Shown here piece by piece: positions 9,558-61,503 of a stretch of 64,000 nucleotides of DNA. A program made the position numbers and the translations under genes. The first letter of the stretch is position 1. Every line of letters starts with the position of its first letter. Location: assembly GCA_000310025.1 (NCBI GenBank), contig FN649744.1:1528824-1592823 (forward strand), written 5' to 3'. Origin of the DNA: Ectocarpus siliculosus (lineage: Eukaryota; Sar; Phaeophyceae; Ectocarpales; Ectocarpaceae). The notes beneath the pieces are model-generated. The model made no database searches. It had not been told where the DNA came from and saw only the letters and a program-made list of their open reading frames with translations.

Positions 9558-12500
9558 CTATCTCCCTGCCAGGACCGAACACACCTCGCCCAGCTCGAAA
9601 CCCTCGTCGTTGGTGACGTCATCCACCATGTCCATATCCACCGAAAACTGTCCATCGCTGCCGTGATCATCGCTTTCACGCCCGTCATCTTCTTCGCCGC
9701 CGATACACGCGTCCCCTCCTTCCCCATCGAGATCGTCACCTCGGTCCTCTTTCTCCCCCGCCTGGCTCGGCGGTGACTCCGGTCCCACAACGATCGGGCC
9801 GACGACAACAGCATTGTCATCGCCGTCGTCCTCGTTGGTCGGACACACTCTGGCGGTTCCACCAGTGCCGGTGTTGCCCTGCTTCTTGGCCCCGCCAGGA
9901 CCAGCGCCGCCGCCGATTTTCAGGAATCTTGATACCGCGTTCCGCGGATGCCTCGGCGGTGGTGTCACTTGTCTACCTGGAGGCGGCTGGCTCCGACTTG
10001 GCCCTTTGGCACGCCTTCCTCGCCACGGCCACCGCCGCTGACGCCGGCGCCGGCGCTGGCTCTTGGGTGTTTGAGATGGTTGCCCTCCGGAATGCTTGCT
10101 TTCTTCCAGGAGAGGAACTCGTACCCGACCGGTCGCCGCCAACGTAGTCTGTGTTTCGTGGCCGCCATGAAGAACGTGCCGTCCATTTGTGTTTGTTCCG
10201 TTTTATGGAGGGTAGAGGCAGGAGCGAGGTGAGTGCGCGAGGGTCGTGGATAAGAGGGGGTGGGCCCAGTTGAGGTGCGGAGGAAGGAAAAACTCTGCGA
10301 ACAGAGCTAGTTTCACCCTAACCTACCGTGCTGCATCATCCCACTCTTGATAAACGGACGGTGGGTATCTTATATCTTCGCGCGTTCTTCCTGAGCTGTT
10401 GCTTGGTGATATGCTCGGTTTCGTGTTGAGCATCTACTTACTCGTTTCCCGTGCCCATGGTAGGCGCGATCATACGGACTGCTAAGTCGTAGGGAGTAGA
10501 TCGCACTTGACGATGGTTTACCGTTGGTTGCACCAAAAACGCTCACTGACTCTCACGTGCCGCCTATGCGTTAGTCTTAACGGTGCAGTACCTGAGGAAT
10601 CCCCGCGAAAGAGAGCACATGCGCCGCTTCCGCCCTGCTTATCTCGCCGGGTACCCCGTCAGCCTTCACAAAAAAACGAGACAATAAGAAGAAGAGACGA
10701 GAGCAATGTTTTGGCAACAGAACAGCCGCTGTCACCGAATTCCTGTGGGACGATCAAGCCAAGGGCGTCTCGGGTGTTTTCTACGCACCTCGCAAAGCGC
10801 AAAAGCGCGCCGGAGTTCATCCCGAGCAAGATTGTTCATCGCCGAGGCTATCCGCCTGCAGTTGGGACGAAAGTGAGAGTCGAGAGAGTTGATGGCGGCA
10901 GTTAGGGACGTCCGTCGTAGGGTTATTGGGAGACAGGCGTCGGCGTGATTTTCGGGCGAACATGTTTCGGTAGCTTTTCGTACTTACAACCAATCCTCCT
11001 TGCCGTCTTGCTTGCAACATTGTTCTAGAACAGCGCCGGAGCGCCCAGAGTAAGGCCACGTGTCGAATTATATGTACTTGGAGTCATTCACCGATTGTAC
11101 ACGAGGGACGAGTCTCGAAACACGCTTGGACCATCAACCCCCCCCCAAACGCCTCTGTACTTTCCCAACGGCGGGTTGTTGATCTCACCTAATTGTCCTC
11201 ACTCCAACCATGGATTTTCTCCACGGATCGACCGCCACCGCTGTTCTGGCGGCCGTGTGCTGTTTCTGCTGTCGACGTTGGTCTCTCACCGTTGCAGTGG
11301 TAGCCCTGAGCTCCTCGCGGCCTGCGGACGTCTTCAGGAATGACCGACATTCCGCGGCAGCCAATTCCTGTCAGATGCACAGAAAATCGTAGACGGTTGG
11401 GTGAACAAACTTACACATTGGACACATATTCGTAGCAACACCGACTTGTGTTGAACACGATGCTACTCAGCCCAAGCGAGCTGTTTCGCGCTCGTATAGC
11501 CGAGACATGCGTATTGTCATTGATCAGCCGAACATCAAGAAAAATGTCGGCAAACCAAACACTTAAAAAACGTTTTCCTTGCGTGTCCTGTCTAACCTCA
11601 CTTCGTTTTAGTTGTCAGCCGGCCAGCGCGATTGATACTGACCGCTGAAACACGTACGTACACGTATACAGACAAACACCAGCGCATTCAATGTCCGCGG
11701 GTTTTCTTTCCCGCTCCAGATGGACTCTTTCACTGGCAAACCAGCTAGCGCGGTCGGTGCAAATTACGCAAACACACACACACACACGTGCACACCTCGC
11801 CCAGCGCGAGCGCTCGGCCAAGCTTGGCGGCACCCATCGTCATAGCCCTGAGACGGTCCACGTCGGCCGGCGTAGCGCCTCCGGCTGATTCTATGCCTCG
11901 CTTCGTTTCTGCAGCCTCGGCTAGGCGCCAGGGCTCGCCATCCTCCAAGGCGATGGCGCGAGCAAGTTCATGCCTACCGAACGGGGGACGCGGGCATCCA
12001 GTATCTCGATGGAATGCACGGTCAAAAGTGGCTTAAGTACTCAAAGCAAGTTCATGCCCAGGGGTGGGGAGCGCCGTGGCACGTGAGTCGCACCGGGAGT
12101 CTGAATCTGGTAGCACGTTGAAAGGCTGCTCGGGAGTGAACCTTGGGTTGAGTAGGTTATCAACCAAGGAGAGGGTGCTACAGTTGTGAGCAGGAGGAAT
12201 TGTACATTTTACCCAATTTGTAGACAGGCGGTTTCACGCACCTCTCGAAGGCCCTCCCTTCTGCTAGCAGAGCCTGTTTGGCCAGCTTCCGGAAAGCACC
12301 TGGCGTGAAGAACATTTTCAACTTTAGTTTCGCGATGGTCGCGAGGTCCGCCCGGATCTGAGCCTTTGTCCGAGGTCGCCTCTCGCCTTCCGCAGCGCTT
12401 CCAGCTGAGTTGGCCAAGGCCGAAGACGAGGGGCGATGCAGCGAAGCCAATACGTCTGCAAGGTCGACCCTTGTCGAGCGGAGAGAACGGAGCGGTAGGG

Positions 12501-14534
12501 TTAGCACGTCAAGAGAGGAGAGAGGTTGAAAGTGTTTCCCGTCAGCAGCAGATACGCGTTGTTTTTCGATTGATTGATGCAAGCAGGAGCGGCGCTGATG
12601 GTTGGCTCTTGTTCGTGTTTGGTTCGGCAAGGCCCCGGGAGGTTCTTGTCGAACGAACGAGCTTGGCCTTTGGGGAGGTACGCCACTGGTACGTTCGTCG
12701 TTGGTGACGTTTCACGAACAATACACTTCGACGGCGCGGCGGGGTGGGTGGGGGCGTCGAGAGCGCTACCGAGTGCCTTCGAGAGCATGTGAGAGGGCGA
12801 TCGGTGTCTTTTGAACACTTTTCCCAATACTTTTCTATCCACCACGGTAGTAGAAAGCTCGCATGACGGCTACAAAAGGCACGGAAAAAAGGAAAAGGGT
12901 GTGTCGGTCTGGTGATGTTGGAAAGATCTGTTCGTTTGGTACCAAGAAATTGCTGTGTTGGAAGGCCTTATTAAAACAGGGCTTTAGAAACGGTTGTTCG
13001 ATGAAGAAGGTGAAAAAATATGACCGCACGAGTGAATTGCATGGTGGTGGATATTGACTACCACCATTGCCTTTGTCGATCGAAGGTATGACAGTGAACG
13101 CTCAGGCTAGACCTCGCTGAATAAGTCCGACACCGGAAGAAGGATGAAGAAATGATACCCAAGAGAAGTCAGTTTGGGAGTGAATGGGCGTTGAAATATA
13201 TGAAGTGGTGGTCTTTCGACGACGTAGTTTGTGGAACGGACGGAATGGAACGGAGCAACTTTGGACGCGGTTTGAAAGTAGGTTACTCAAGATTATCGTG
13301 GGAAAAAAGTCTTACATTAGCATAGGTCATTAGTCAAAACATTCGTTACCATTCGCACAGCACACACGGTACCTCGTCAGGGTCTTGAGGTCTCGAATTT
13401 CGTCGTGCGCATGGTCGTCGAAGATTGTGCTCAGGCTCAACGCATCTCCTGATTCCACACCCGCTGTACGAGCAGCATTTGGCAAGGTCGCTTCTTCTTC
13501 GGCTTGGGGCGGTAGCCCGAAATCAGCACTTGTACGAACGATGTTGGCGGTACGCCCCGCCGTGCCCTTTGCGAGGGTTGAACCTAGAAGCGTGACCTGC
13601 TTCCAACCGGATAGTCCGACGTCAGAGTAACGAGGCACTTGGACGCAGAGAGTCCTTGGTCGATATGGCAATCCTTTCACTTCCGAGACAAACCTGGAAT
13701 TACTTCCTTGAGACACGCGTAAAGCCTACCACAGGCTAGAAGCATTGGGTATATTGTTGAATTCGCTGATGACATTAGTGAGTTGCATTTCTTCACCTTC
13801 CTTTCTTCCCACCCTCCAGTGTGCCATACGAAACGACTCTTTCACAGCATTCCTTGATTTTTTTTCTTACGTCAACTCATGTGATGACATTCCGAATATA
13901 CATCTGTCCTTCCATATCGGCTATACTTCTTCCAGGTGTTCAAACAGGAATGAAGGCCAGCAAGCGCACCCGTACACCTGACTTTTCGCTCACGGCTCTT
14001 CGACGTGATGAACGTGGCATCACCTTGTACATCTGCACGCTCCATCGTTATTTTCTCTCTACCATAACCAATTGGTAAGGTCCCCACACAACAGGGTTGA
14101 TACCTCACCTGACTCCCCCATATTCTCCGGTTGGCCCCTCCTACCAACGTGCTGCGCAGACTAGCGCCAACGTACTTGAGTTCCGACGGCTCGACCCCCG
14201 CACTCGCCCCCGCCGTTTCCAGCGTTACCCCCGCCGCAGTACTGCGATGCAAGCCCCACAGAAATCGCAGGATGGGTGCCTCCACAAGCGGAATACCGGA
14301 GGTATCGGTGGAAGTAGCGTGCTGTCGCTGTTCTTTTCGCTGTGTTCGTTGCTCCTCCTTGTCGTGGCTGGCCCCTTCGTACGAGTAGTCAGCTGATCCT
14401 GCGGTGCCCAACTCTCCGCTTCCACTTTCCCGAGCGATGCTTGTGGCGGTCCTTATGGCAGCGCTCCATTCGAGGCGCAAGTCGCGGGTCCGCCGAGCGA
14501 GCTCCCGCTTTCCAGCTTGTGTGAGGATCATGGC
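9558..14534 (-). other. EF-hand giant, segment 6: C-terminal region, exons 29-33
   Basis: Exons: 14534-14176, 13693-13373, 12469-12242, 11973-11796, 10148-9558 (stop TAG). Exons 29-32 interlock in phases 2, 2, 2 and 0, which supports the chain: SELK|FVSEVKG, TLTR|VDLADVL, FER|HELARA. Exon 30 holds a non-repetitive block (GLPYRPRTLCVQVPRYSDV, GLSGWKQVTLLGSTL) that could be a small folded domain I cannot name. Exon 31 has helices (ADLATIAKLKLKMFF). Exon 33 starts with a basic Arg/Pro-rich stretch and ends in an acidic tail of about 80 residues rich in Asp, Glu and Gly. Confidence 0.75.
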
Positions 14535-17500
14535 CTAGGTTCAGGAAAGATCGTTTCATTTTTCCCGAAGAGCCATGCTGGTTGGTGGGACGAGGGGCTA
14601 TAAACGGCTTCTTTGAATGTCTGATGACTACGTCTAGGTACTGCGCCAAAATCACGCTTTCCCCAATAAAACAAACGGAAAAGAGCAAGGGTATCACAAT
14701 AATAATAGAATACGCGTCATCACCACCTGCACATCGGCGTAGGCCTCAGCTTCCGCCCTGGCCAGCTTGGACGATCTAGCAGCCGCCAGCCTCTTGGCAT
14801 TAAGCCTATCTCCTCGTCCCTCTCCCCCTTCGCCGACACCACTACCTTCGCCACCAAGGCCCTCGGTACCATCCTTCAGCAGCGGCTTGCCTGGTGGAGC
14901 GCTACTAGTACCACCACACTCGCGGCCAACTCTTGTTTCAAATGCCACGAAGTACTCGCCCGCGGCATCGGCTGCAACAGCACTAGCAGTGTTGCCAGTG
15001 GCGATCTTCGCGAGACGTAGCGCCTCCTCGTCTTCATCTTCGAGGCGAAGAACGTTCTTCACCTACGGTGGTGTTGGAACACGTCGGCAAGGCAAACGTT
15101 GGTAGGTAGCGGCTACGGTGTAAGAGGGTTGGGACAAGCCAACAACACTCTCTAATTACCGCTCGTCTCTTAACCCGTGCTGAATAATATATGTATTTCT
15201 CATGGTCGGGACCAGCCAAAAACACTCTCTGAATGATTCGATTTTTTCTTCAATAGTCTCTCGCAAGCCGTAGCCTCTACTGTATTGAGCAAATGATCGG
15301 TTGAACAGCCACGGAAGCCCAATCATGATCAGAAGTCATAGGGGATGCCACTTCCAGCGCCTTTGCGGCGATTCACGTAAATTTTGCGCTTACGTTTCAT
15401 TGCGGACGGCGCAAACCACGAACATCAACCACAGTACATCCGATCATAGAGCCAAGCGCAGACACGTTACAATTTGTGGTGAAACGGTAACATCATGCAG
15501 ATGGGGCGGTCGGACGGGGGTACACTCGGTGCGTTCGAACAAACGAAGGGAAAGCGTCGACATCGACATCCCTGCACTACCAGGGCCGAGCATCCATCGG
15601 CACCTTTGTTGGTAAACAAGCAAATGAAATGGTTAGAGAACATCTGAGACTACAAAATACATCAAATCTTAGGTCGTTTGAGAGTTTGACGTCAACCGGA
15701 AAGACCACCGGAGGTTGTTGCAAAGGGAAACAACAACCCTTCCTACATCAGGCCTTCACTTCGTCTCACAAACGTTCCCGATTGATGTACCCCTGTCCTC
15801 TTGACATCGAAAGTACACGTGTTGCATCCAAAGGGACGTATCGTCTGAAACCTACATGTCACACGACCCCAAAACTTTTGTCCCCCTCGGCCCACCACCC
15901 CACCTCAGCTCTCGCTTCTGCTCGCGCCCTGCTAATCAAGGCCCGTCGAGCGTCTCTCCGTGCTGCCGTTATCGGGGCCACCTTGGCCACCAGCGATGAT
16001 GCCGCCGAGCGGATCAGAGCTGCCGGGCGATTGGATCGCTTCAGCCCGTCTTTGTGCCACCAAGCCGAGAACTCGCAGAAGTCTACGTCGCCGCTGCCGT
16101 CTCTGAGAGCGTTCGATTTTGTTGCAACCCAGGGAGGGGCAAAAATCGCGGTGGGATCTAGCTTCTTTTTTTTTGGAAAGAGGGGGTTTCGGTGGGTGAG
16201 TACATGGGTACACACAGAATGGGTTGGGGGGGGCGCTCAACGGTACGGTTCGAAGTGGTTGTTTTGAGAGAGGAAAAGTGGAAGGGCGCCACACGGACGG
16301 GGGGGACGAATGTGACGAACGATCACATGTCGTTCGGGGATACAAGCCGCTGGGAACGAGCAGGTGGGGGAAATACCCTAACGACAGTGATCGAGATACA
16401 CGACGATGGCGTAGAAGGGGTGGGGGGTCGCACGCGTTGCTGGGCTTGACACGGTGGCGGGGTTTTCGCTCTCTGCCTACGGGACTTTTCTCCTTTGTTG
16501 TCGGCGTTTTTCTATTACTGTAGGCACGACGTTGATGCTTGTTTCATTCTCCGCGGTTGGCAAGACCGACGGTCACTTGCCTGTCCATCTCATGGAGCAG
16601 ACCCACGATCTCTGCCTCGGACATCGGCACGTTCATGCGAGACAAGAGTCTCCCCAGCTCCTCCGCGTGGATGCAGCCGTCGCACGACACGTCGAACAGC
16701 CGGAACATATGGCGCAGCTTCTCCTGAAAAGCAATGCACACCAAGATTATTGATGAGAGTCGGTTGACGGGTGGAACTCCAAGCCGCGGAAGGTTTGCAG
16801 AGTTATTGCCGTTAACAGTCGCTATGTCCCTTGAGCAAGCAACACCGTCGATAGTCGCGGCCGAAGAAGGCTTGAACACATGTGTGAGTCCAGTGTTCCA
16901 TCTTTGGATGATCCCTACAACAGGAAACTCAACAGACTACAATTTTCACCCTCGTGCATTTCGTTCGACGAGCTATTGCATTCAACAACAACAACACCTT
17001 CTTCTAGCCCTCTCAATAACATGGACCTGATCGCCCTTGCACATTCAACGCGCACAACACCACAACTACCTCTGCCCGTTTTGTCTCTCTCAGCGCTGAA
17101 GCATCTGTCTTTGTGACGCCTGCCTCCTCCTTTGCGAAGCTAACACCCGCATCCCAGGCTCGGAGGGTCAGGTTCAAGGCCTCCTCCGCTCCGCGTATCC
17201 TGTCCCGTTCCCGCTTGAGTTCTGCTGCCCCGGCTTGGGTTCTCCATTGTCTGAAAGGCAGTGGTTGTTGGGGTAGTTGAATCGCTCGTCTTCGAAGCAT
17301 CTACTTTCAACAGAAGCAACTACAATATCTCTTGGCCTCAGGGGGATACTACATTACGTGGAGGCGGATCCTGTTGGCTCGGGCTTGGAAACGGATATTT
17401 GAGGCACTGATTGTAATGGATCCGTGCAAACATTTGCTGAAACAAGTTATCCTTCAGCGAAACCTTCACTCGTGACAAACGGAAATTCGTACAACCGTGA

Positions 17501-20500
17501 TGAAAATAACTCATAAGAATAAAAGAGGTTCTTGGTTGAGGAAACTCTATTTAGTAGTCAGCGCCACAGAACACCATACCAACACATCCTGCAGAAAACG
17601 GCATGACATATGATGTGATTTACTCAAGTAATGGACGTGCGTGCGTGTGCACCTACCTCTTGATGCGCCGCTCCGCCACGTCCTCGGCCCGCTTCACCAC
17701 CAGCTCCCGCTCAGCGTCCCTCTCCTCTTCCTCGAAACGCCGCCTCCTCCCCGTGGCCCTCGTGGCCAAGACCCGTCCCCGTTCCTTCCCTCCTGTCACC
17801 TTCACGGCCAATGCCGGCTCCTTCCTTGCCGTCGCCGCCTCCACCGCCACGGCGTCTTCGTCTATAACTTTCTTTTCTTCTTCGCCTCGTTGCTGATGCT
17901 GCTCCTGTTTTTGAGGATTTGGATCTTCTTGCTTGGCTTGTTCGTGGGGTCCGTCGATCGCTGCTGTCGATGCTGTCGTGGCTACCACCGCCGGTGCTGC
18001 CGCGGGTACTGGTGTAACGCCCGATGATGCCCACACTTCCGCCCTCGCGGCGGCCCTTGATCTCGCTACTATCGAGGCTCGAACCTTAGACAGAGAGACA
18101 AACAAACCGGCAGACAGACAGAGAGACAGACAGACAGACACCGAGACAGACAGACAGACAGACAGCGACAGCGACAGCGACAGAGAGAAGGAGAGAGGGA
18201 GAGGGAGAGAGAATATGTATGGCGTGGGTGGGTGGGGGGTGGGTGGGGGGTGCGGGGAAGTGTCGCGTTCCTCATTTTCGGGAGGTTGCCCCAACGTTAC
18301 GCTTGCTTAACCTGGGAACGTTCAGTGCATCGATTCTCTCTTGTTTCTTGTGCGCACAAGAACGCCGTACAAACGCCTGGGGAAGGTTTCAGTTCCACTT
18401 GAGACATGTTTCAGACGATTTAATGAAGGGGCGAGAGTGGTAAATTCGCACTCGTGCAAAGTTTCCAACAGTCGGGCAGCGTACCATGGGCCAAAGAAGG
18501 TTTGTCGAAACATTGTCTCGCTCGAAACAACTTTGCTTCGGTGGGACTTCCTCGGGAATTGTGTTGACCTACTGTAGATATCTACTTGTGTGTGCGCGTT
18601 TGTTAATTTTACCTGGCTTTCTAGTCGGCGTGTGGAGCTCCCACCAGCCTTGACGCTCTGTCCGGCCCGCAACATCTTGCTCAAGGGCGCCCGTCGGAGG
18701 TCCGCCCCCTCCTGCACGCAGATTGTTGGTTTGCCCGAAGAAACGCGGGACAAATGCCATTGGGTCAGCGTCTATGTTGCAGCAACTCCATATCAACCAG
18801 CGGCATACATATGCGTGCGTGCGTTTGTTCAACAGGAAGCAACATTCGCGCACAGTTGGTCTTCGGGCATCCGTGTACACGCACAGATGGTCAGAAAAGT
18901 AGCACATGGAGTGTACGGAAACCTTTCAGAACGTAGCGGTGGTCAAATACGACAACCACGCAAGCTGCTTCCTTGCTGAAGATGTATCAACAAAGCACAA
19001 GCCTCGATGAGCGCGTACATTTTCCAGCCACGTCACAAGTTCCTCCTGTCGGATGTCCCCGGAACAGTCGAGGTCTAGCCTTGGAAAGAGCTCGCTCGCC
19101 ATCTTCGCGGTCACCCAGATGCCTAGCTGTCCCAGCAGGGGAGCGAGCTCCTCGCGATCGATGGCTCCGGAGCCGTCAGCTGGCATGATTTCATCCCAGA
19201 GAGAGACGTGTGGAAATGAAGAATTGTCGTCACAGGACCCGTTGTTTGGCTGGTTTTAACCCTCCCGGTATACAAGCACTTGTGTGTATACACATGATGT
19301 GCATCCTTTTGCTATTCTACTGTTGTCTTGACGCCCAAACTAAGGACTGGTGACAACCATGGTACTTGCATGTGTTGTACATTCCGCCTGGTGCAAGTGA
19401 CTTAAACCGTCGTGTGATGATTCTTTGTAGACTGAACTCACCGTCGAAGAGCTGGAACAGCTGCTCCGCCTGCCCCACCAGAGGTGACCTCTTCTCCCGT
19501 TCCTCCACCCGGTCAACAGCACCAGCAACATTGAGGGAAGTAGAGAGTTTAGCCACTGATGCCGTATGTTTCGCCCCCGCGTCCTCGCTCAATCCCGCGT
19601 TGGCTGGCGCCCCCCACGTAGCTCCCTCGCTTACCGCTCCCGCCGCTGCCACCTGAGTCACCACAGTTTGTCTCTCCTCGTGGGTGCCTTGTGCTGTATT
19701 GGTTTGCGGAGCTTCTCCACCCGCTTCCGCCGCCGCCGCCACCGTGTTTGACGTCGCGGCAATAACGCGGCTAGCTTTCAGTCGTCGAACTGCTCTGGCA
19801 ATCTCGGCCCGCCCGGTGGGTGTCTGAAAGGCTCTGCGACGAGCGGCTGCCGCATCTCTCTGTGGTAACCGGCCAAGCACGAGACGAAGGGTGTGTGGGG
19901 TGAGAAAGACAGGGACAGAAAGAGAGAAAGAGCAAAAAGTGGAAAGGGGTGACGTGCGGACATTGGGTCCTTGGACGCACCGACGCTGTTTCGCGTTTTA
20001 CAAAGATCACCTCCATTCTGGGCAGAATCTATCACAACGATGCGTCTAACCTGAATGTTTTTGCACTAATAGCGGCGCGGAAATGTGGGGGCAGGATCGT
20101 AGAAAGGAAAACGGGTGCAAAACACAAACGGTGAAGAAAAGCGGCAATGGCAACCGACGACCGGGGAAGAACAAGTTGGTGTCCGAGGTTCGAATGTCGG
20201 CGACCGACCAGCTGGAGGGCACCTGTACCTACATGTTATCTGGTTTTTCTCCCTCACCTCCGCGGCCTTGACAGTCTCAGCGATATCAGCGGTCGGCTGT
20301 CGCTCTCCCCAGGTGCCAGGAGCATATACTTGAGTACCCGTGCCGCGACCGCCACCGCGGCGCCCCCACCACTTTCTTCCGCCTAACGACCAAGCCAAGC
20401 GGGAAGGCGAGGAGGCGAGGGCGCCGACGCTGCCGCCATCCACCCCAATGGCGGTCGCGAGATTACCACTCCCGTCGGAATGGAGAGCAGCAGCGGCAGC

Positions 20501-23500: not shown

Positions 23501-26500
23501 CTTGAGGTCGGACGATAGGGCCGCAAGCAACCTTGCCCCGAGAGCTGCGTGCTCGTGCGCGCCAGCGCTACCCTGAAGTTTGGCATCACAGAGTTTTGTT
23601 TTAGTCTCGAAAGCCCGACGTGGGAACGGAACGAGCGAAGAATACAGCGATGGTGCGGTTGGCGGTGGTGTCAACACGCAGCTAGGGTCGTACGCTTGAG
23701 AGTGGAAACGTTCCGGGCACCAAGAACGTCTAGAGATGTAGCCAGTGCTAAATATCATGCTTGCTCGGTACACCACTATTATTGAACAAAGGTACATGTG
23801 ACACAGAGCATGTCGGGCATGGCGGTGATTTGCAACAACTTTCAAGGTTACACCATGAATGCGTTCATGTCTACGACCAACCCTCGACCAAATGAATCGT
23901 AAGATCCCATAGCTGACGAAAAGACTGCGATCGTTGTTCTTAGACCAAGAAGTCTTATGTCGTGCTTTCTCCGTCGCTTCCGATGTTATCGCTACTACCA
24001 CGGAGCATTTGTTGTTGTTGCCCGTCGACATCTTCGCCAGGTGTTGGGCATTTACTCGTGTCTACCTCGAATCATCGCGGCCATTTGTCAATCTCTTGGG
24101 AGCGTTGTCGTGAGCACGGTGCAAGGGCCATCGCACTCATTTTCCAACTTTCCTTCACACCTTTGGTGCGATTCTGGCTTCTTCGGCGGCCTCCGCCCTG
24201 AGCCCGGCGGCCGCCAGGCGGCTCCTCTCATCCAGCAGCCGCGCCCACTGCCGCTCCGCGCCCCGTCGTCGGTGCTGCTCTTCTCTGACGGCGGTAGTCG
24301 GGTCGAGAAACAGACGGCCACGCTGCAGACGTTGCTTCTGCTGCTGGTGGTGGTGGTGGTGGGGTTGCTGCTCCATTCTTCGCCGTTCCAGCGTCCCCTC
24401 GAGTTCTTTCCCGCATGTGAGACCGGCACCACGAGCGAGACTTGTAGTGGGTGGATCGTCCAGCGTAAAGGGTAAAACGAGAGAGAAGAAGAGGGTGGAG
24501 TTAACGAGAAGCAGGTGGAGCGTGCGTGGCTTGAGGGTCGAGGAGGCGGCGGTGCGAACGGGGGTGACGAGGGGGTGATCGCTCTTCAGTTACCGCATCC
24601 CTTGAAGAACCCTCAAGGATGCTCTTTGAGCTGGTGGACGTCGTCGCACTGAAGGATAGCCGTTTCGAATGGCTGGAGTCGTGTCCACCATCTCTCAACT
24701 GTTCTATGTAGCACTTGCTATCAACACCACTATTCAATCGGTTCGAGTGCGCAACAAAAACAAATTACTTCGATTGAGATTCAACCACTACGTGTTTGTT
24801 TCTCGGTACATTTTTTCGCCCTGTGTACCTGCCGCCCCCGAAGTGTCGCCAGTAGTCACCGTACAAAGCGAAGGCCTGGTGGCATGCCCAGCACTCCAGG
24901 GTAGGGGGCCAAGCCTCTCGGAATCGTACCTTCGGTGATAAAGAGGGAGTATTACGGAAAGGAGGGGGCGGGGGAGGAGTCGAAAAGTTCTTCACGAGAG
25001 TAGGCTATTGAGGACAATATGTTCAGAAGCCGAAAGCAGTGCGGCGTGTACGTTCAGAGACCTTTGCAATTAAATACCAAGCAGGTGGCATTCTCAGGCT
25101 CTTGGCTCGCTTGCTACTCAAGGAGTAGACCTCAGTGTACCAAAATGTTTGGTTTTGAGAAGCCTTGCAACCGTTAGAAGGCGAGTGGACGAAAGCCCCT
25201 AGCCATGAACCACTTGAAGCACTCACTCGCCGGCCACATTTACACAAAACCGGCATCTCAACTCTAGGCACTCGCGATTACAGGTTCAGCCGTCCCTCTC
25301 TTTCATTCAATACAAGTTACGCTATCGTTTGGAAGTCAAAACCTGCGGTACACAGTATGGGGGCATTCTGGATACCTGCGCTTCCCGGGCGGCCAAGGAC
25401 ACCCAACGACGGATGACGCTGCGACGGGCCCGGTCCTGCAAGGCCATGCCCGTGGCCGCTCGGAGGTTTCGGCGTGCCTGTCAAAGAGCACAAGTTGTAG
25501 GGCACGTGCTGGCGTGTGACCGGAGAGAAAGATACTTCGAAGGATCCGTTCGTGGGAGCAACAACCAAAACGGCAAGCGCGGTGAACCGGTATTGGGACC
25601 AGAGCAAATGCTTGGGGGTGCAGGCGTGGAGTGTAAATCGGCAGGGGAACCTTGGATTATGTTCTGAAAAAAATTCCTTAGGGTGAGGGACGGGGAGACA
25701 TTCACTTCAACGAAATTTGAAGGTCGGGATCGGTCCCCCCGGTATAGGTAAGAAAGGTAACATCCCGCTCGCGGTGTCTGACAGAATTCTAGACTAAAAC
25801 AGACGTACCTTCAGCAAGGAACGGAATTGTTCGTTCATTTTCAACTACTTCCACTTCTTGTCTAGGCAGCGAAGACAAAGCCGCTGAGAATGCCGTCGTC
25901 ATTTCTTCACCACGCCAACTACTACTTCTGATACAACAACCCTGGGCTTTCTTGGTCACCTTCACAAAAGTTGCGCGAGCCGTGTGTCTCGGCCCCCCGT
26001 TTCCCTCGGCTGATCGGTACCCGGACGTCAACGCCGCGGTGGACTCTTCCATTCCACTTCTCGCAGTGGAAAGGCTTGGACTGCTGCGAAGACTCCAGTT
26101 CTCTGATGTGTCGCTCGTCATACCACGAAACCCGAGGGCTTCACCCACGCCGTAATCACCGCCACCATGGAAGCCACCCCCACCGAACCAAGCGTAGAAC
26201 TCGGAGAAACTGATCTCCCCGCTACCGTCGGCATCGACGGCGGCCGAAGTTACCTTCAGTTCCGCGTTGGTGATCCCAACGCCCAGAGCGCCTAGGAGGG
26301 CCTTTAGCTCCGTGTGCTGAGTGGGTTTGAGGGCACGCAACACTTGCGAGGTCATTTTGTTTGGTATGGCTGGGTCCATCATTCTAGAGTGAAGAGGCAT
26401 GAACGATGGTCCATAGGGGTTCGACGGGGTATGGGAAGGGGGATGGAAGGGAACGACTCGGACGAACTGGTATCTTTGAGCCGATACGCCTTGACGCGAA

Positions 26501-29500
26501 CGCAACGCATCATTTATGCCTGACATCCCTGACATCCCGGTGCAATATTTCGCAAATAGTACTTGGCACCAACTGCGACTGTGGGAAAAAGTACCCCGGC
26601 AACGGTGGCCGAGAGTTTGCTCCCTCTTTCGCACTCCCCCTGACTCGAGACCCCCGTCTCACATCGATGGTGCCAGAGCCATCGAGGTCGAAAGAATCGA
26701 ACACATCGTGCGCGCTCGCTCGTCGCCGCTCCTCCGGAGACGCGCCTCGCATCAGGATCTTGGTTCGAACGACGGCAGCCTTCGCGCGCCTCATCTCCTG
26801 CGCTAGTTCAACTTTTCCTGCGTCTGTCTGCACGCAACCAGTTGCGGGGGGAAAAGGAGTAGATGTTTGTTGGGATTGTTGCTGTTGTTGTTCTTGTTCT
26901 TGTTTTGTGGTTCTGGGTGGGTGATGTGACAGTAGGCCATTGATGGACTTTGGGCAAACGTGGGTGCCGTCAATGGGTGATGACCATGCGCCTGGTCTCC
27001 CTCCTATGCAGCACTCTCTTACCGTCAAGTACATGTCGGCCCTCGTGGTCGCCAGTCGCACAGCTCCTCCTACCGCCGCCGCTTCCGCCTCGCACCGGGT
27101 TATCTCCCCGTCCACGGCGAACTGCCTCACCATCCCGGCGAAGCGCCGGTGCAAGAAGCCTCGGGCCACGCGGTTGAGCCCTGCAACTCGTATTTGTGAC
27201 GACACGACAGAGAGCATCGTGGGGCTACGTAGACGCGTTTGGTTGTCACACGCACAGAGGGCCAGCCCTCGATGCGTCCGGGCGAACACCGGAGTGAATG
27301 TTTCTGGGAGAGAAGGGGGTGGTGGCTTAGTTAAAGGTGGGCCCCTGACAATCGCTGTGTTGTGACAAGATAGGTATATTACATGAGGTGGTACGCCATA
27401 TAAAGCGTCTAAATTTGAATCTTGAACAAGTGATGGTGGTAGGAGGGGCGCGCGCCCTTATGTCCTGATGCACAAAAGCGGTTCCGCAACACGGAAGAAC
27501 CAGACATGTTGCCGCATACAGTGACACACGGAGCCAAGTGCTTATCACGTATCAAAGCCAACATGCCTCCCTCATCAATACACCCTTTGAAGGCCGAGGG
27601 GGGATGGGGAAGTAGTGACATCACCATAGTGTGGCTAACGACTACGTCATGCCGTGTGGGAAACCAGGGGGTTGGTACTATGTGGCAGTAGCACGTGCAT
27701 GTGTTGAGTCAGGCCTTGGCTCGGGCCGTTGCTGCAGTCCGAACGGGATCTGTCCTGTTATCTCCCTTGCTAGCCTGGGGTCAGTCATGAAGACATGGGA
27801 GATCCTGAAAGCGAAGACATCGACACCAACGACAACTTCAACAACGACAGCCAGAGGCATCCTCTGAAGAACCGACGCACAATCGAAGAAGTGCCTGTGT
27901 GTACAACAAATAAAGGCAGGCTTTATTACCCGAAAAACGATGTGTGCACGTACCTAGGGCCGCCCGCCACAGGCTAGTGTGAATCTCCGAGATCGCCGTC
28001 GCCCTCACCCTCCTCAGGACGAATCCCCTGTGCAAGGCCTGCAGGAGTCCAGCGGAGGCCTCCTCAAGGCGCATTCGTTGGGTCGTTCGCTTCGCCAGGA
28101 ACATTCGGACCTGTTTCCAAGTCCAACGTTCCCGGAACCGATATGTCGTATGGCTAGACAAAGGAGGTTGGGCCGGGACCCCCGCCATCTCAGCTAGGGG
28201 CATGGCCAAACTCTTTTCATCCGCAGAGGGTGGTGGTTCACATACTGTCGCGCCTAGACTGTGCCGAAACATTTTCCAGCTCTCTCTAGGTTTGGGTGGA
28301 CGCGTTGCGCATCGCTCAGACCCAACACCCTCACGTCCCTTCAATACCCCACTCTCTTCCTCACCACCGACTGCGCCGAGATGGTGTGCCGGATCAAGAT
28401 CCGAATCTCTCTAGCCTTGCGCCTTCCGTGGGCCCCTCGTATGATCGCTTGAAACTTCACAGTCGCGAGGCCTAGCCGGTACATCCGCCGGCGCCAAGCC
28501 CTCGCCACGAACGTTGCCGCGCTGCTCCGGTGAGTTTTGTCCTTCCGGGCGCCGACGCGGGCCAGGTGCCCACGGAACGCAGCGGCGGCGAGCGTCTGGG
28601 CGGCGGTTCGTCTGTTTCACGCGCGGGAGGTTTCGCGTGGTTTGGCATTTTGAGGGTTAGTCGGTAATCTCGTATTTTTCGTTCTTCCTGTTCAAGGGTT
28701 ATTAAAGGAAGCCTGGGCCGAGGCAACAGGGTTATGGTACTTCACGTTCGAGTCGCGCACTGCCTGCGCAGTTTGGTCCCCGATGGAAATGTGACGTGCC
28801 TGAGGAAGTGTCGGCGATAGGTGCGCTCGATGATAGAAGCGAGGTAGTGGGCTCTAGCAGAGTACGGGAACAAATCCGGGCCGGCTCCAGCACCAACGCC
28901 GCGATCGCCGCCCCCGAGTTGGGCGGAGCGACCCTTTCCTGCAGCAGGGGGGCATGGGCTCGCAGTGCCACCACTACCGTCCCGAGAGCCAATGCGACTG
29001 GCGCCTTCTCTTTTCCCCGTGAGCTCTGCCGCCGCCTCCCCGTAGAGCCGGACCGCCTCGTCCCGGTCCCCCCTGGCCTCCATCACCGCCGCGACCTGCC
29101 CCAGCCAGACCGCGCGGGGCGCCTCCTCGGCGGTCCCGCGCTCCATCGTGACGGTGAGGAGCGAAGACGCAGCAGTACCGGGCGCCGAAATACACGCGGC
29201 TCCTTGCGTTGTTGGGCCTCTTCCGGCTCCGGTTGGCGCCGCTTTGATGCCGCTGGTCGTTGTCGCCGTCGCTGTTGCTGTCTTCTTCTTCCTCCCGTCC
29301 GGGGATGTTGCGTGCGCCGCGGAGGGCTCATTGTCCGGGGGGAGGTTCGCTTCGGCTTCGTGGCTGCCGCCGGGGGGCGTGAAGCGACGGCCAGACTCAT
29401 CGAACAGCTTTCGTTGACGTAATTGGAAGGGTCAGGGTTGGGGAGAGGGAGACAGGAAACTCAATTTATCGTCTTAGTGAAGGTATGTTTCTCGCTTGAA

Positions 29501-32500
29501 ATTGTTTCCAAAAGCAAAGAGAAGGGGGTTGCCAACACAATGAACAACAGTAACACGTGTGGTTTTATGTCAAAGGATTTGCTGGGGCAAGGGCGCGAAG
29601 AAGAGATATTACACCCTGCAGAACGTCTCTCGACAAAAGAAGAGAATCTTTGCCCAGCGGAGCGACGTGTTCTTGTCAACACCCCTCGAGCAGGTGGTTA
29701 TTGGGCAGCGCCGAACGTGTACCTGTTCAGGTCGCCTCCCCTTTGGCTTTCGGTGGGAGCTGCGTCGGATACAGGTATACTTCCACAACGTCGCTGCCTG
29801 CACCGAACGCTAGCTCTGAGCAGATTTCCGCGACGTTTTCGAAATGGTAGTAAGCCGAGCCTTGTGATTGCCTCTCCGCAGCACCGGGGAGGAGGGCATC
29901 GCATTCGGTATCCGCCAACCATTCAAGTCTTGTCTAGCCCCTACCCCAACCAACCACCCAATTAGCTCAGTCTCAGCCCGGGTGCCAAGATGCTCACCCG
30001 CACTTGCCCTTCAGAACACGTCAAGCGAGAACTCACACGGGTTCTCCTGACTCGCATCGAGTTTGTTGTCACCGCACAAAAGCACAAGCCTAAACCTGAA
30101 GGTGGCACGACAACAAATCCTCCCTTACCCGTGCGCCCTCCGGAGGAAGGTAGGCGAGAACGGCGTTCAGGGGTCTCGCCAACTGGGATGCGACGGGGTC
30201 GGTCCACACGCCGAGGCCGAGCGAGCCCTCGAGGAGGCCGACAAAGTTGGCGGTCATGCTCTCGGAGGGGGGGGTTGGCTCCAGCGCGTCCCCCCCCAGC
30301 CCGAAGAAGGTTTGGTCCTTGCGCCCGGCGGTGACGGCGCTGGCGGCGATTTGAGGCCAAACAGAGAAAGCAAACAAAAAAATTGAAATGAAGAGACGAA
30401 AAGGCGAGGGCGGTGTTTTGAACGAAACGATTTTGAACAACGAAACGTTTCTTCGAAGAAACAAGCGCAGCGGTGAAACAAACCGAAAGAGAGCATCGGC
30501 TTACCGCGGGAACACGCTTGGCGAGAAAACAAGCTTTGTCATCACAACGAAAGTGGCCAAAGAAACGCGATTGCGCCTGGCTCTTTTGTGGTTCCCATGC
30601 TCGTGCTCGCTGCACACACTCGCTGCAAGATTTCTAACGGTGCAATAGAATGAATCAATCTGGGCAGGGGGGAAAGATGGGCACACCATTGCCCACAACC
30701 AAGGGATATATCAGGGTGGAAAGACAGTAGTACTGTATGTCACAATGCACACAATCGTGTCCTCAGCACAAAGGCGCTTCCAAACAAGCCTGCAGGCTAC
30801 ACCACACCTGTTGCTCCCATCGCATGGCTGTCCTTCTTCGGCACGGCCACCACCTCCGACTGCGCCCCCGTCTGAACGGCCGCCACGTCCACCCGCAACC
30901 ATCGTTACGGCCCGGGGCGGGGACTTTGGCGACCCGGAACCTTGGCGTGCCGTACCTGCTGCCGCTGCCGTCGTGGACGAAGCCTGGTCTTCGAGAAAAG
31001 CAGCGAGACGACGTCGAGATCTCTCTCCGTTCCTCCTTTCGCCATCACCGCTGGCCGTGGCAGTGGCGGTCGCTCCGCGCTGGCGCTTTGGTCTTGACGC
31101 GTGCTGTTGTTGTTGGTCTGAGTAGGGCGGCCCGGAGGCCTTCGTCGGGAGGCCTCTCTGGTGGGCGGCGCCAGCCACAACGCAGTCACCACCTCCAGTA
31201 GCAGCAGGGGCAGCTAGCGAAGAGGAAACATCTCTGCGACGTCGCGAGATGCAAATGATACGCGTAGAGCGCACACGTTCGCATAGGTTGTCAGCGCTGT
31301 ACTTCAGTACTTCTGGAGCAGAGCAGAAGACAGGCTTCGACCGGCTGGAATACCATTCCAGTTAACAAGGCTACTTCAACTCATAGAAAAGGTAATATTA
31401 AACACCGCGTAAGAACAGACTCCAAGAGAGCATTGGCAAAGGTGACTGAGGCTGCTGTGTCGCCATGAAAGAGTACGACAAATTGGTGTTTCTCAACATT
31501 CACAACCAATCTTCTCCTGACTCCCATCAAGAGCCGCCCTGGATAGTAGCTATGCAGTGGTTGTCTCCGGCGCATCCCTCTATGATCAACGCGAACACCC
31601 TCCAGCCTAGAGCATTCAACCGTTACAAGGATGTTGCATGCTCAGCGACCAAAACGAGCAAATCAATACACCAACCGAGTCATTCCCCACCTTGAGCCGG
31701 TCGTAGCAGAACTTTCCACAGCGATCTTGATCGGCCGTCGCCCACTTCCCGCGCCATCGGCGGCATCCTCTGCGCTATTGGTTGCCCTCGCTCCTGCTGC
31801 CACAGTCACTGCTTTCAGCGACGACGACGACGACGACGGTTCTACCGCTGGCGGTGCGTCACGACAAAACTCCTCTGGAACGACGCCAAGCAGACTCGTG
31901 GACACCTGTGACGGTAAGAAGTACGTCAAACGCATGACGGACAGTCCGACAAGGGACGTTGTGTGATGGAGTTCGGGGGAGCACGGCATGCAGCAGGCTG
32001 GACGTATAAGGCTATCGTATTCTCCAACCCGAGCAAGAGACGAAAGACGACTGGTGACATAACCTACCCTTGCTTTCGGTGGGTAGACTCGCTTGCGTTG
32101 GTCAGTGTGTCGAAGGGGATCGTTCTGCCAGCTCCTGAACTAGCGAGGGACAAACAACACAAGAGGCTCGTGGGACGTAACCTCGTTCATGCCAGCCGTA
32201 TCCGCAGCGGACCCGGAGTAGTCGACTTTTAAACCCAGTATTTCCAGACTTCGCACAAGGTTCTTAGGAACATACCCCGCCGTTGGACAGACCGGAAACT
32301 TGAAAGCCTTCATTACGGACGCAACTTGCAGTTCTGAAAGCGTCTAGCTAACGGCTCCTAAATCGTGTCCCTACATGCGCTCTAGGAGTGCTGGCACACA
32401 AGGGCGAAGCGACGTGGAGCCCACCCGTCGCTGCCAAATTATCCCAACATCTTGCACCACGTCACGCAATATAGTACGCAGCACAACACATCAAAATAAC

Positions 32501-34487
32501 GAGCAGCAAGAGAACCACAGCGGACCGCATTTTTCGCGCACACCTTCTCTTCAATCTCCGCTCGAGCGTCCGCCGCTGTGGACGCCCCCCTCTCGGCCCT
32601 GGCCCGTCTTCCCGCCCGCGCCTTCGCCGCCGCCTCCGCCGAAGGACGGGGGCGAGGCCAAGGTGTGTGGTGCCGGTACTGCGGCAGACGGTAGCAAGTA
32701 TCTCTCCCTTGTCCCCTCCGGTCTGTGCGTTGCTCGGTGGCTGCTCGACGGCTGGCGCCGCGGCTGCCGCCAGTGGGTCTGGGTGATATCGGTGCTGACG
32801 AAGAATTTGGCAGCAGAAGTGGCGCCTGTGTTGATGGGTGGCGTTGGTGGCCTTGCCTGTACTGTTGTTGCCCGGCAGTGTTGGCTGGCGGCGACGAAGC
32901 CATCTAGGAGACAAGAAGACGGGAATGTATTCATCGTTGGAGAGTGGGTGTAGCGATAAGGTTCTTTTGCCGACATGGCGCTTACTTCACCGAGGGCCAC
33001 GTACGGCAGGGCATGCCATGCGCCAAAGCTACACAATTCCCAGAACCCCAGTTCGGCTAGGCGATCTTTTCTCACACAACTCGTTTGCCCCTCCCACATG
33101 TACGCCGAAAAGCACAGAGGGAAATGGATTGGACATGGAGAACCAAGAGGGTAAAACATCTACTACGCATGGAAATTGAGCCCCGTAGAAATGTCGGGGC
33201 GTTCTCCCCCCCGAAGCTGGGTGGGACAACGTGCCCTGCCGACACAAGAAATAATACATCTGTGGCACATCCTTCACGGGCTCCTTCAATTCTAGAGAGG
33301 GGTGATATCTACGAATACCGAGGGCGAGGACACCTTTCGCCTGAGCTCCGTCATCGGGTAGTCATGGTTACACTTGTCGGCATTCGTTCCGAGCAGGCTC
33401 AGCATGTCATCCGCCTCCTTTTTCCAGCGCCTAATATCTGGTGTGGCCGGTGTGGCTGTTTCACACCGGCCACTGTTTGCAGTAATCGGCCTAGCGCGAC
33501 CACTACCGTCGTCCACATTCGCCTCGTCTTGCCCGCTTGGGGCACCATGCCGTTGGCCTGAGCGTCGTTGCCCATGTGGCTCGAATTCTTTCTCGGATTC
33601 AAAGGCTGCGGAGACTGGCAGGAGATCGTCGGTGGTGATACCTAGCTTTGTGCGAAGCTTGAGCATCTTTCGAGCGACCACCTCCTGCACAGTGATGACT
33701 GGTTGCTCCGGGACCGGCGCCACATTCTGCGAAACAACGTTTGCGGCGACCGAAAATATATGCAATACACCGAGACTCTAGACTGCAGCCTAGTCTTGTC
33801 AATACGTGGGCAAAGGCACGTCGACTCCGGGAAGGTATGGCGTTCCGGTGGTTGCGTGTGTACATACATCCTTAGAAATACACATACGTTCACGGAAAGA
33901 CTGTCCACATCCTTTCACCGCCACAAGATGCTGCAAATAAGGGAAGAGGGTCCATCGAGCAATGTAGAGAAGCCGACGTCCGTTTGACAGCGCCGTTCTT
34001 TTGATCGTGTATTGAGACTGGATTTTTAGCGGCATCCAAACTGCGTGCGTTCAAAGCAGTGGATTTCGCCCCAACGATGGGCTACAGGTGCAAATGTGCG
34101 CGGTGAGCGGAGAACCGCTATGATATCCGCACGTGCGCTTAATCACATCCCGTTGACTACATAAATATGTATGACTGCTCGGCTTCCAAAGGTTACGGTT
34201 TCGTGCTCGCTTACCTTATTGTAGGGGGACGCCCCAATGACGAGCTCCCGCCAGTCTTCACCCCACCGCCGCTTCCGAGGACGGGCTTTCTTGTCAACGG
34301 GGAAGGTCTGAGTCTGCGTGAGATCGACCCCGGACAGACCCGGGAAACCGATCCACGCCGGCGCTGTCGATAAGTCTCGCTCGCGGCCGAGCTTGATGAG
34401 CCTTGCGTCGTCGTCGTTTTGGCGGCGTTTCTTGGCGGCGGCGTTGGCGGCAGCGGCCGTAGCGATGGGAGTGGCAGTCTTACTCAT
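9558..34487 (-). CDS. Giant EF-hand/IQ-motif protein, 33 exons, about 3,032 residues
   Basis: A putative calcium-binding scaffold. Thirty-three minus-strand exons chain from ATG at 34,487 to stop at 9,558 without a phase break (sum 9,099 nt). Exon coordinates are given in the six segment entries that follow. Eight EF-hand loops are visible, in four pairs, at about residues 1009, 1045, 1332, 1384, 1958, 1994, 2259 and 2295. Each has Asp at position 1 and an acidic residue at position 12. Two IQ-like motifs (about 878-888 and 911-921) could bind calmodulin or an EF-hand partner. Long Ala/Arg- and Glu-rich helices separate the pairs. There is no kinase, protease or membrane segment, so a structural or sensory role is inferred. 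The closest architecture I can name is that of large multi-EF-hand proteins such as EFCAB6, but orthology is not shown. A few splice choices (exons 12, 14, 19, 20) are alternatives. It could in principle be two genes, but no internal start or stop suggests that. Confidence 0.78.
14727..16723 (-). other. EF-hand giant, segment 5: EF pair 4, exons 26-28
   Basis: Exons: 16723-16581, 16102-15904, 15062-14727. Exon 26 gives EKLRHMFRLF and EF loop 7, DVSCDGCIHAEE, a weak loop (Ser and His at coordinating positions 3 and 9). EF loop 8, DRDGSGDVDFCE, is canonical but split by an intron after its first Asp. Only a GC donor (ACAG|gcaagt, 16,581/16,580) gives the right phase; the nearby gtgacc donor would break the loop. 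Loop 8 is followed by FSAWW and the basic helix ending RARAEARAE. Exon 28 is acidic then Gly-rich (LEDEDEEALRLAKIATG, later KLARAEAEAYADVQ). Confidence 0.82.
15131..15236 (+). repeat. Short direct repeat in the flank of exon 28
   Basis: Two imperfect copies of about 27 bp at 15,131-15,156 and 15,208-15,236 share GGGAC, AGCCAA, then AACACTCTCT. They lie in the intron between exons 27 and 28 of the EF-hand gene. Function unknown. Confidence 0.55.
17070..19859 (-). other. EF-hand giant, segment 4: EF pair 3 and basic helices, exons 21-25
   Basis: Exons: 19859-19442, 19179-19019, 18711-18613, 18084-17657, 17250-17070. EF loop 5 is split by the exon 21/22 intron after its first Asp (LFD | ADGSGAIDREE). 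EF loop 6 is DLDCSGDIRQEE, with Arg at position 9, followed by LVTWLEN. Exon 24 begins with an Arg/Ala helix (VRASIVARSRAAARAEV) that resembles the helix after EF pair 4 (RRALISRARAEARAE). It ends in a charged coiled-coil-like stretch (FEEEERDAERELVVKR) that runs straight into exon 25 (KRQWRTQAGAAELKRERDR). The acceptor of exon 24 lies beside a pyrimidine simple repeat on the minus strand. Confidence 0.8.
18090..18215 (+). repeat. Compound (CAGA/GACA/GAGA) simple repeat at a 3' splice site
   Basis: About 125 bp of CAGA, GACA, GACAGC and GAGA units. On the minus strand it is an almost pure pyrimidine tract that ends a few bases before the acceptor ctaag|GTTCG of exon 24 of the EF-hand gene (18,084). 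It therefore probably serves as that intron's polypyrimidine tract. Confidence 0.8.
20258..24929 (-). other. EF-hand giant, segment 3: EF pair 2 and long acidic linker, exons 14-20
   Basis: Exons: 24929-24860, 24405-24161, 23572-23411, 22781-22599, 22420-21635, 21360-21209, 20606-20258. Exon 15 is a helix with a His/Gln tract. EF loop 3 is DRDGNGELDVSD (Asp at position 12) in exon 17. EF loop 4 is split by the exon 17/18 intron (DEDHSGQ | VDIDE) and is followed by FMRWF, the same Trp-Phe exit seen after EF loop 2. Exon 18 (262 codons) carries a Ser/Asp/Glu-rich disordered stretch and ends in a basic helix (EARTLLLRRARLRAQ). The exon 19/20 junction is chosen as NLR|EAEEAV (donor gttcga). A phase-0 alternative exists with donor gtggaa and acceptor at about 20,646. 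Exon 20 is Ala/Gly/Pro-rich. Confidence 0.7.
22855..22899 (+). repeat. Dispersed repeat, copy 1, with a GCGTCCTCGAGAGGAC palindrome
   Basis: CATGCCTTAG at 22,855 is followed 20 bp later by GCGTCCTCGAGAGGAC. The same two blocks in the same order and strand recur at 61,001-61,042 in the intron of another gene. This copy lies in the intron between exons 16 and 17 of the EF-hand gene. It is probably a remnant of a dispersed short repeat. Confidence 0.5.
25376..28110 (-). other. EF-hand giant, segment 2: IQ motifs and EF pair 1, exons 9-13
   Basis: Exons: 28110-27954, 27186-27023, 26827-26663, 26316-25960, 25477-25376. Exon 9 holds an IQ motif (LQALHRGFVLR); its donor is the strong gtacgt at 27,953, which gives the phase exon 10 needs. 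Exon 10 holds a second IQ-like motif (LNRVARGFLHR, Asn for Gln). EF loop 1 is split by the exon 11/12 intron after its ninth residue (DLDGSGTID | HTE). EF loop 2 is DADGSGEISFSE, followed by FYAWF. Exon 12 is ended at VK|gtgacc because exon 13 (ARRNLRAATGMALQDRARR) then continues a helix. A later donor at 25,8xx would put exon 13 in a Pro/Gly frame and is less likely. Confidence 0.75.
28796..34487 (-). other. EF-hand giant, segment 1: N-terminal region, exons 1-8 (residues 1-855)
   Basis: Exons: 34487-34215, 33726-33334, 32825-32544, 31905-31691, 31233-30808, 30339-30129, 29933-29781, 29407-28796. The start ATG at 34,487 opens MSKTATPIAT and is the only in-frame Met before the basic stretch KKRRQ. 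The first donor is ataag|gtaagc. Exon 3 was placed in the frame ending in a helix (ADARAEIEEK) because both neighbours are phase 0. Exons 4-5 are Ser/Ala/Gly-rich. Exon 6 holds a compact block (GRKDQTFFGLGG through LAYLPPEGAR). Exon 8 contains one TPR-like helix pair at about residues 749-781 (AVWLGQVAAVMEARGD, then EAVRLYGEAAAEL) and ends in IIERTYRRHFLRH. No named domain apart from the single TPR-like unit. Confidence 0.68.
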
Positions 34488-38500: not shown

Positions 38501-38554
38501 CGCGACCGTGAGACTAACGACGATGACGACGACGATCGAGGCAACCCTTCCTGA
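35521..38554 (+). CDS. DUF676 (ROG1-type) putative serine esterase/lipase
   Basis: An alpha/beta-hydrolase predicted to cleave acyl esters of lipids. Exons: 35521-35950, 36374-36528, 36899-37807, 38366-38554; phases interlock (G|CC gives the Ala of VVLAHGLSG). Product about 560 residues if the first ATG is used. Visible family features: oxyanion motif HGLSGT (about 145-150), nucleophile elbow GNSLGG with Ser215, TPHLGV, a candidate catalytic Asp355 in RRGDFMVPYG, and a candidate catalytic His511 in FSHNKIC near the C-terminus. Two low-complexity insertions (a Gly/Ala loop around 300-325 and an acidic/Ala-rich loop around 370-480) separate the catalytic residues. The start is uncertain. The leader of about 60 residues is Arg/Ser/His-rich with few acidic residues and might be a targeting sequence, while ATGs at 35,704 and 35,743 would give shorter forms. 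Substrate unknown; yeast ROG1 acts on monoacylglycerol. Confidence 0.9.
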
Positions 38555-42200: not shown

Positions 42201-42984
42201 GCGTGAAAGTGACATCAGTTGTGCACTCTTTGCCATCTTACCTCCAATAGACCGAATTTTGGTTGCCGTTGGGAACTCTGGGTTCCGTTTCGCTGAACTA
42301 TGATTTCAAATAAAATGATTTTTGAGTTATTTCAAACGTTAGTCCGGATGTTCCGGCCCAGTCTATTGCTTGCTGGAACTGCAGGTGGAAAAAAAAAAGG
42401 GTGGTCTTGTCGTTATTTCACCCAATCAAATAGAGACTTCTGTGCTGCGTCCCGTTTTAACTATTGGCGTGGGAGTGAAGTGTGGGACCGCCAATCTGGA
42501 TAAGACCAGCCCTCAGGTCGTCTCAACCGTCTTCGCGCGAAAAACCAGTCATGGTCTCCAACAACAATACTAGTCCATCTAGCAGCGGAGCAGGTACTGC
42601 TGGGTTCGTCCATGGATAGTTGTCAAGTGGAACGCGTGTTGTTGTTTTCCTTCGTTGGCGAAAAAGGTGTGTCCAGCATCACGCAAGAAAGAAAAGAAAA
42701 AAACAAGCTTGGGACTAGCACGCCGACGATATTCGTCGGCTTGCTTTTGAAACAATATGGGTGTTGCTGCGTTGCTTGAGCCCGACTCTGACAAGCAACG
42801 AGGTGCACATTGGCACGAGGAACAATCGAGGTGGGCCAACCGTCCAAATCGGTGTGTTGTTCTGCTACTGCTGTTATGCACAAGTGGCGAGAAGCTCCCC
42901 GTTGTTGGCACACGACCGTAGATGATTGAACCTAGGATAACTAACTCGCCTAGGTCACTCGCGACAAGTCACGACAACGAAGGC

Positions 42985-43031
<47 letters not shown>

Positions 43032-61461: not shown

Positions 61462-61503
<42 letters not shown>

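Follow-up and report, generated by a model that had tools for sequence, protein, structure and literature searches.

Given that the minus strand of this Ectocarpus siliculosus window (the whole stretch of 64,000 nucleotides that was analysed) appeared to carry a very long, intron-rich EF-hand gene, the locus raises the question of whether a single giant protein is encoded here, where its gene ends and how its parts are arranged. The curated chain runs on the minus strand from 34,487 to about 8,341 and consists of 37 exons with 3,284 codons plus a stop and no internal stops (9,855 coding bases, stop included; product of 3,284 residues). Along this chain, we placed four EF-hand pairs and the copies (m1, m2 and so on) of two basic motifs, H1 and H2, which were defined by eye on the model protein. 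The features are as follows:

8,341–34,487, minus strand: whole coding span (curated 37-exon model; prediction 34,487–8,571 by the finder trained without the window)
34,215–34,487, minus strand: exon 1 with the start codon (ATG at 34,487; donor GTAAGC, score 6.6; start reproduced in other gene-finder runs)
29,781–33,726, minus strand: exons 2–7, low-complexity N-terminal region with uncertain limits (phase-consistent; exons 3, 5 and 7 with coding scores about zero or below)
28,761–29,407, minus strand: exon 8, site of a formerly proposed TPR-like unit (coding score 32.5; TPR_7 E 0.11, not significant)
27,023–28,611, minus strand: exons 9–11, basic IQ-type segment (strict motifs by regular expression at aa 954 and 1006; charge +33; no Pfam IQ match)
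26,771–27,040, minus strand: H2 copy m1 (aa 1124–1148), with the exon 11/12 intron inside it (leave-one-out profile match; junction within the copy)
25,960–26,827, minus strand: exons 12–13, EF-hand pair 1 (loop starts aa 1176 and 1212; EF-hand_7 E 2.3e-12)
21,635–22,781, minus strand: exons 17–18, EF-hand pair 2 (loop starts aa 1453 and 1505; EF-hand_7 E 6.8e-9) and the larger part of H1 copy m2 (aa 1754–1774; H1 profile)
19,019–19,859, minus strand: exons 20–21, H2 copy m3 (aa 1913–1937; leave-one-out profile) and EF-hand pair 3 (loop starts aa 2045 and 2081; EF-hand_7 E 6.4e-9)
17,657–18,711, minus strand: exons 22–23, H1 copy m3 (aa 2128–2149) and the beginning of H2 copy m4 (aa 2270–2294) (curated model; profile)
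15,904–17,241, minus strand: exons 24–26, remainder of H2 copy m4, EF-hand pair 4 (loop starts aa 2343 and 2379; EF-hand_7 E 1.2e-12; six-frame match at 16,583–16,723) and H1 copy m4 (aa 2424–2447)
14,109–14,534, minus strand: exon 28, H2 copy m5 (aa 2557–2581; profile), with no EF-hand recognisable by Pfam or our own HMM
11,189–11,367, minus strand: exon 32, H2 copy m6 (aa 2917–2941; leave-one-out profile)
8,341–9,018, minus strand: exons 36–37, beyond the formerly proposed gene end, with H1 copy m6 (aa 3237–3260) over their junction (curated model; H1 profile; also in the hint-free prediction)

Coding span and limits of the gene

Genes were predicted with a small purpose-written finder combining a codon model with splice-site matrices, which was first trained on the window together with other DNA from the same genome (289,425 bases in total). 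Early predictions that fused genes and slid into tiny exons, or in one first round spanned 8,341 to 55,056 across the neighbours, were discarded; exon and intron costs were raised. Without hints, the finder trained in this way predicted a minus-strand gene of 49 exons (39,200–8,341) over the studied span. With splice-site hints at the EF loops and the region cut at 9,400, 40 exons were returned between 34,487 and 9,558, the limits given by the sequence-only reading of this DNA. After retraining on 200 kb outside the window, the finder yielded one gene of 41 exons with the same start (34,487–8,571), which overlapped 32 of the 37 curated exons and had 33 exon ends in common with them. The retrained finder scored the minus strand at 252.7, compared with 13.3 for the plus strand and 0 in all 20 approximate dinucleotide shuffles.

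During curation, upstream exons between 39,200 and 35,535 were rejected as antisense to, intronic to or beside a plus-strand DUF676 esterase gene, and an IQ-like stretch at 36,195 was therefore left uncounted. The exons at 33,235–33,098, 24,929–24,829 and 12,869–12,727, as well as one of 11 bp and one of 3 bp, were dropped, the frame remaining intact without them. Exon 7 (29,933–29,781; coding score only 0.7) was added by hand, and exon 25 terminates at a GC donor. Several junctions within the EF loops were likewise placed by hand to restore the loop, with the motifs in mind. The assigned frame was the best-scoring one in 36 of the 37 curated exons (tied in exon 33), a count that includes selection since the exon limits were hand-chosen; for the same hand-chosen limits, the chain log-odds were +341 in frame and −406 and −357 in the shifted frames. 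Seven exons are weak, with coding scores about zero or below in the model trained without the window: exons 3, 5 and 7, discussed below, and exons 14, 32, 33 and 37 (0.7, −1.7, 0.3 and −0.7). Nine of the 36 exon junctions (11/12, 12/13, 16/17, 17/18, 20/21, 22/23, 23/24, 25/26 and 36/37) lie at least five residues inside an EF-hand or motif copy, and a further four (18/19, 21/22, 26/27 and 27/28) touch the edge of one. Junctions 11/12, 16/17, 17/18 and 36/37 were reproduced exactly in the hint-free run, whose training set included the window.

At the 3′ end, the frame of exon 35 reads on to a stop at 9,558 if the donor at 9,585 is ignored; this donor is strong (GTGTGT, score 7.4). Splicing from 9,585 to 9,018–8,906 and then to 8,470–8,341 preserves the frame, and the join of 8,906 to 8,470 recreates H1 copy m6, which resembles copy m4. 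The finder trained without the window also runs beyond 9,558, ending at 8,571 and not at 8,341. The stop at 9,558 probably lies within an intron. We prefer 8,341 as the gene end, its exact position being uncertain given the acceptor of exon 36 (ending in AAAG, score 3.2), the coding score of exon 37 (−0.7) and the rival end at 8,571. The sequence-only reading had described a 25-kb gene of 33 in-phase exons and about 3,000 residues; its intron-rich minus-strand gene starting at the ATG at 34,487 was recovered, whereas the exon number and the product length were revised to 37 and 3,284 residues and the end was moved beyond 9,558.

The finder might instead have merged two genes, namely an N-terminal gene (exons 1–7 or 1–10, of low complexity and possibly including the IQ segment) and a second gene for the EF-hand array. 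In keeping with this, coding scores from the model trained without the window are near zero or negative in exons 3, 5 and 7 (0.6, −3.3 and 0.7), the acceptors of exons 6–8 are weak (0.8, 0.8 and 0.2), and the first-round prediction illustrates that the finder is able to bridge neighbouring genes. However, the finder trained without the window still yielded one gene, and H2 copy m1 straddles the exon 11/12 junction, linking exon 11 to the EF-hand part. We consider a merger rather unlikely and hold with good confidence that this is one nuclear gene, coding for one giant protein with the domains described here. Such a gene may well be split by automatic pipelines.

The surroundings of the gene were also annotated. 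Its divergent neighbour (35,743–38,554, plus strand) encodes a putative serine esterase (DUF676, E 5.8e-29). A FAD-linked oxidase (FAD-oxidase_C, E 9.6e-28), D-lactate-dehydrogenase-like by eye, lies at 42,955–55,474 on the minus strand, and a minus-strand prediction at 60,623–62,132 matched the C-terminal domain of lipase maturation factor (E 1.4e-8, obtained with a query whose first 11 letters were mistyped). A Gly/Ala/Pro-rich gene was predicted on the plus strand at 611–2,716, where the local GC content (61 to 69 percent) is above that of most of the window. ARAGORN detected no tRNA in the window.

EF-hand pairs and the basic IQ-type segment

All four EF-hand pairs exceeded the 30-bit curated cut-off of Pfam EF-hand_7 (47.5, 36.4, 36.5 and 48.5 bits for pairs 1–4), which places them in the EF-hand superfamily. 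The count of four pairs and eight loops made from the letters alone thus held on the spliced product, for which a lack of EF-hand matches had been named as the outcome that would speak against it. Loop-to-loop distances are 36 residues except in pair 2, where the distance is 52. When the unspliced genome was searched in six frames with EF-hand_7, 41 places were listed, among them only pair 4 of the four pairs (E 5.3e-6); pairs 1–3 were absent, as expected for pairs interrupted by introns. When aligned, the pairs have 13 invariant columns common to all four; one of these columns is a tryptophan four residues past the last loop residue, as E-[FL]-x-x-W after loop 2.

Judged by eye, at least six of the eight loops are calcium-type by their ligands, and two are not fully canonical: P2a, with Asp at position 12, and P4a, with Ser, Asp and Cys at positions 3, 5 and 7. 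Degenerate EF-hands had been suspected by eye in the C-terminal part; they were dropped after an HMM built from the eight hands returned just its own eight and Pfam returned none, and neither method detected an EF-hand after H2 copies m5 and m6. The two unusual loops and the missing hands after m5 and m6 are consistent with a lineage-specific cytoskeletal protein whose EF-hands serve as structural helices without calcium switching. The calcium-type ligands of the other loops argue against such a protein, which we consider unlikely.

The IQ-type segment precedes the first pair. Its residues 900–1123 carry a net charge of +33 over 224 residues, and the strict motif [FILV]Qxxx[RK]Gxxx[RK] occurs twice in the protein, at aa 954 and 1006, surrounded by looser IQ motifs (expected 0.039 matches per shuffled protein in 2,000 shuffles). 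The two IQ-like motifs noticed from the sequence alone were therefore recovered by regular expression, whereas the Pfam IQ profile found no match at E ≤ 1 in the model segments scanned. A TPR-like unit noticed alongside them remained unsupported, the only TPR match being to TPR_7 at 13.1 bits (E 0.11) against a cut-off of 27.9. Across the exons, apart from a few residues at the joins, Pfam gave no family other than EF-hands above cut-off, in agreement with the initial impression that the architecture fits no named family; a match to DUF4148 (E 0.047) fell under the cut-off and was taken as chance. A canonical calmodulin exon is present elsewhere in the genome (locus L001, match at 1501–1686).

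Recurrence of H1 and H2 and the search for relatives

H2, a basic motif of the form T-x-x-G-x-x-E-[LI], occurs in five copies (aa 1124, 1913, 2270, 2557 and 2917) with the consensus T-x-A-G-x-x-E-L-A-R, in which T, G and E are invariant in all five. H1, a basic motif of the R-x-A-R-x-x-L-[ILM]-x-R-A-R type, occurs in four (aa 1754, 2128, 2424 and 3237). The order along the chain, with EF denoting a pair, is H2, EF, EF, H1, H2, EF, H1, H2, EF, H1, H2, H2, H1, that is, a cycle of H2, EF pair and H1 with members absent; the full cycle is seen twice, once at pair 3 and once at pair 4. In leave-one-out searches of the model protein, the held-out H2 copy was the top match outside the training set in five of five cases (domain E 1.1e-4 to 0.035), and in a set of 8,051 six-frame stretches drawn from the window plus 200 kb it came first outside the training set in three cases and second in two (E 0.035 to 2.4). 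H1 is less well supported: the held-out copy was the top non-training match on the protein in two of four cases (m2 and m6), with m4 second and m3 third, and none of the four was among the nine matches listed for the six-frame set.

A single-sequence AlphaFold2 model of exon 28 placed H2 copy m5 within a helix (residues 6–37), with means of 63, 70, 66 and 50 for the first four ten-residue blocks and a low overall mean pLDDT of 52, and only suggests that this copy is helical. The H2 profile found nothing significant among solved structures (best E 0.19). Among all 18-residue windows, H1 ranks at percentiles 23 to 92 in helical moment, which is ordinary and therefore lends no support to an amphipathic calmodulin-target helix. 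Both the recurrence of H1 and H2 and the likely 3′ extension are features absent from the sequence-only reading.

Searches of the genome itself (189 Mb, 492 contigs) with five protein queries found the studied gene plus 2, 0, 6, 10 and 3 other places, respectively. Six weak matches of one query (best E 0.066) were taken as chance, and the remaining places, which were not all inspected individually, were read as generic EF-hand places. No second copy of the gene was found within reach of these searches, which were run exon by exon with the best candidates scored and which a distant paralogue might escape. Ten EF-hand loci were scanned on their plus strands for the Trp motif and for a pattern resembling H2, and neither turned up (an EF-hand lay in the frame read at just six of the ten); a scan of viral contigs confirmed no relatives. 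As a separate observation, EsV-1-7 cysteine-rich repeats (PF19114) are greatly expanded in this genome, with matches in all 150 of the scored sequences out of 880 candidates, on contigs C30, C45, C476, C191 and others; the accessible part of an earlier report describes such an expansion for brown algae (PMC7457493). Residues 102–129 matched designed repeat proteins with a best E of 2e-6, none of the stretches passing by itself; this match was set aside as compositional.

Axonemes commonly contain EF-hand and IQ proteins, and the protein might be a ciliary or basal-body calcium sensor, the flagellum having been suggested as a possible site from the sequence alone. The brown alga Ectocarpus has flagellated gametes, as stated in the accessible text of a published study (PMC7457493). 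No protein of this architecture appeared among the titles and abstract openings listed in literature searches. Against such a sensor, this held for the flagella-related searches too, and the EF-free parts searched had no meaningful match among solved structures. We regard this role as improbable, and placements in the flagellum or at the cell cortex are guesses.

Proposed scaffold and comparison with known systems

As the best overall explanation, and at only slightly less than an even chance, we propose a single giant protein that carries an eroded array of H2, EF pair and H1 and acts as a calcium-responsive scaffold. Its N-terminal third is of low complexity and closes with the basic IQ-type segment; the C-terminal two thirds would be the eroded array, with a module of H2 (basic, predicted helical), a calmodulin-like EF-hand pair and H1 (basic). 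The parts look familiar and their order unfamiliar. Each EF pair would act as a calcium-sensing lobe, and the IQ segment might dock calmodulin or a centrin-like light chain. Calcium-loaded lobes could then present hydrophobic faces and hold on to basic helices of their own chain or of partners, calcium thereby altering the shape or the partner set of the long scaffold; that the lobes grip H1 or H2 is speculation. Judging from sequence features, this mechanism is plausible, if somewhat on the doubtful side. A calcium-controlled scaffold able to bind calmodulin had been suggested before: eight calcium-type EF-hands beside a basic IQ segment make such a scaffold, putatively calmodulin-binding, a reasonable interpretation, and the calmodulin exon in the genome fits it, whereas the TPR component finds no support. 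A calcium-driven mechanical protein of a new kind, a one-polypeptide counterpart of the centrin–SFI1 fibre in which calmodulin-like lobes would alternate with their own target helices and each lobe, under calcium, would clamp the helix next to it and so shorten or stiffen the molecule, seems very improbable.

Set beside known systems, the proposed scaffold recalls calmodulin and centrin (EF-hand_7, PF13499). Of the four pairs, 1 and 4 were compared with solved structures, and the segments holding them matched calmodulin chains, the best match being a calmodulin fusion chain (E 1.2e-20 and 2.2e-22, respectively), and the spacing of 36 residues seen in three of the four pairs is that of the calmodulin loops. 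Unlike calmodulin and centrin, it combines eight hands in one chain of 3,284 residues with long linkers, extra motifs and the Trp that follows loop 2 in every pair. With IQ-array proteins such as the myosin neck, IQGAP and SFI1, it shares a basic segment carrying IQ-type motifs; it differs from them in having only two strict motifs and no Pfam IQ match, and in that its chain also contains EF-hands. Multi-EF-hand cytoskeletal proteins such as EFCAB6 and alpha-actinin similarly hold several EF-hands within a long protein, whereas Pfam detected neither a spectrin repeat nor a calponin domain here at E ≤ 1, and H1 and H2 are not known from proteins of that type.

Brown algal calmodulin-like proteins are EF-hand calcium sensors of the same lineage. 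According to the accessible part of the survey that described them, Ectocarpus has 35 EF-hand proteins, and only those with EF-hands alone and fewer than 400 aa were retained, longer or multi-domain ones being excluded (PMC10222329); with its 3,284 aa, IQ segment and long linkers, the studied protein falls outside that definition. The present analysis yields a testable recurring module of H2, EF pair and H1, together with the corrected gene model. Should the array function in the proposed way, brown algae would possess a long scaffold that responds to calcium, a type of protein removed by the length and domain filters of that survey (PMC10222329).
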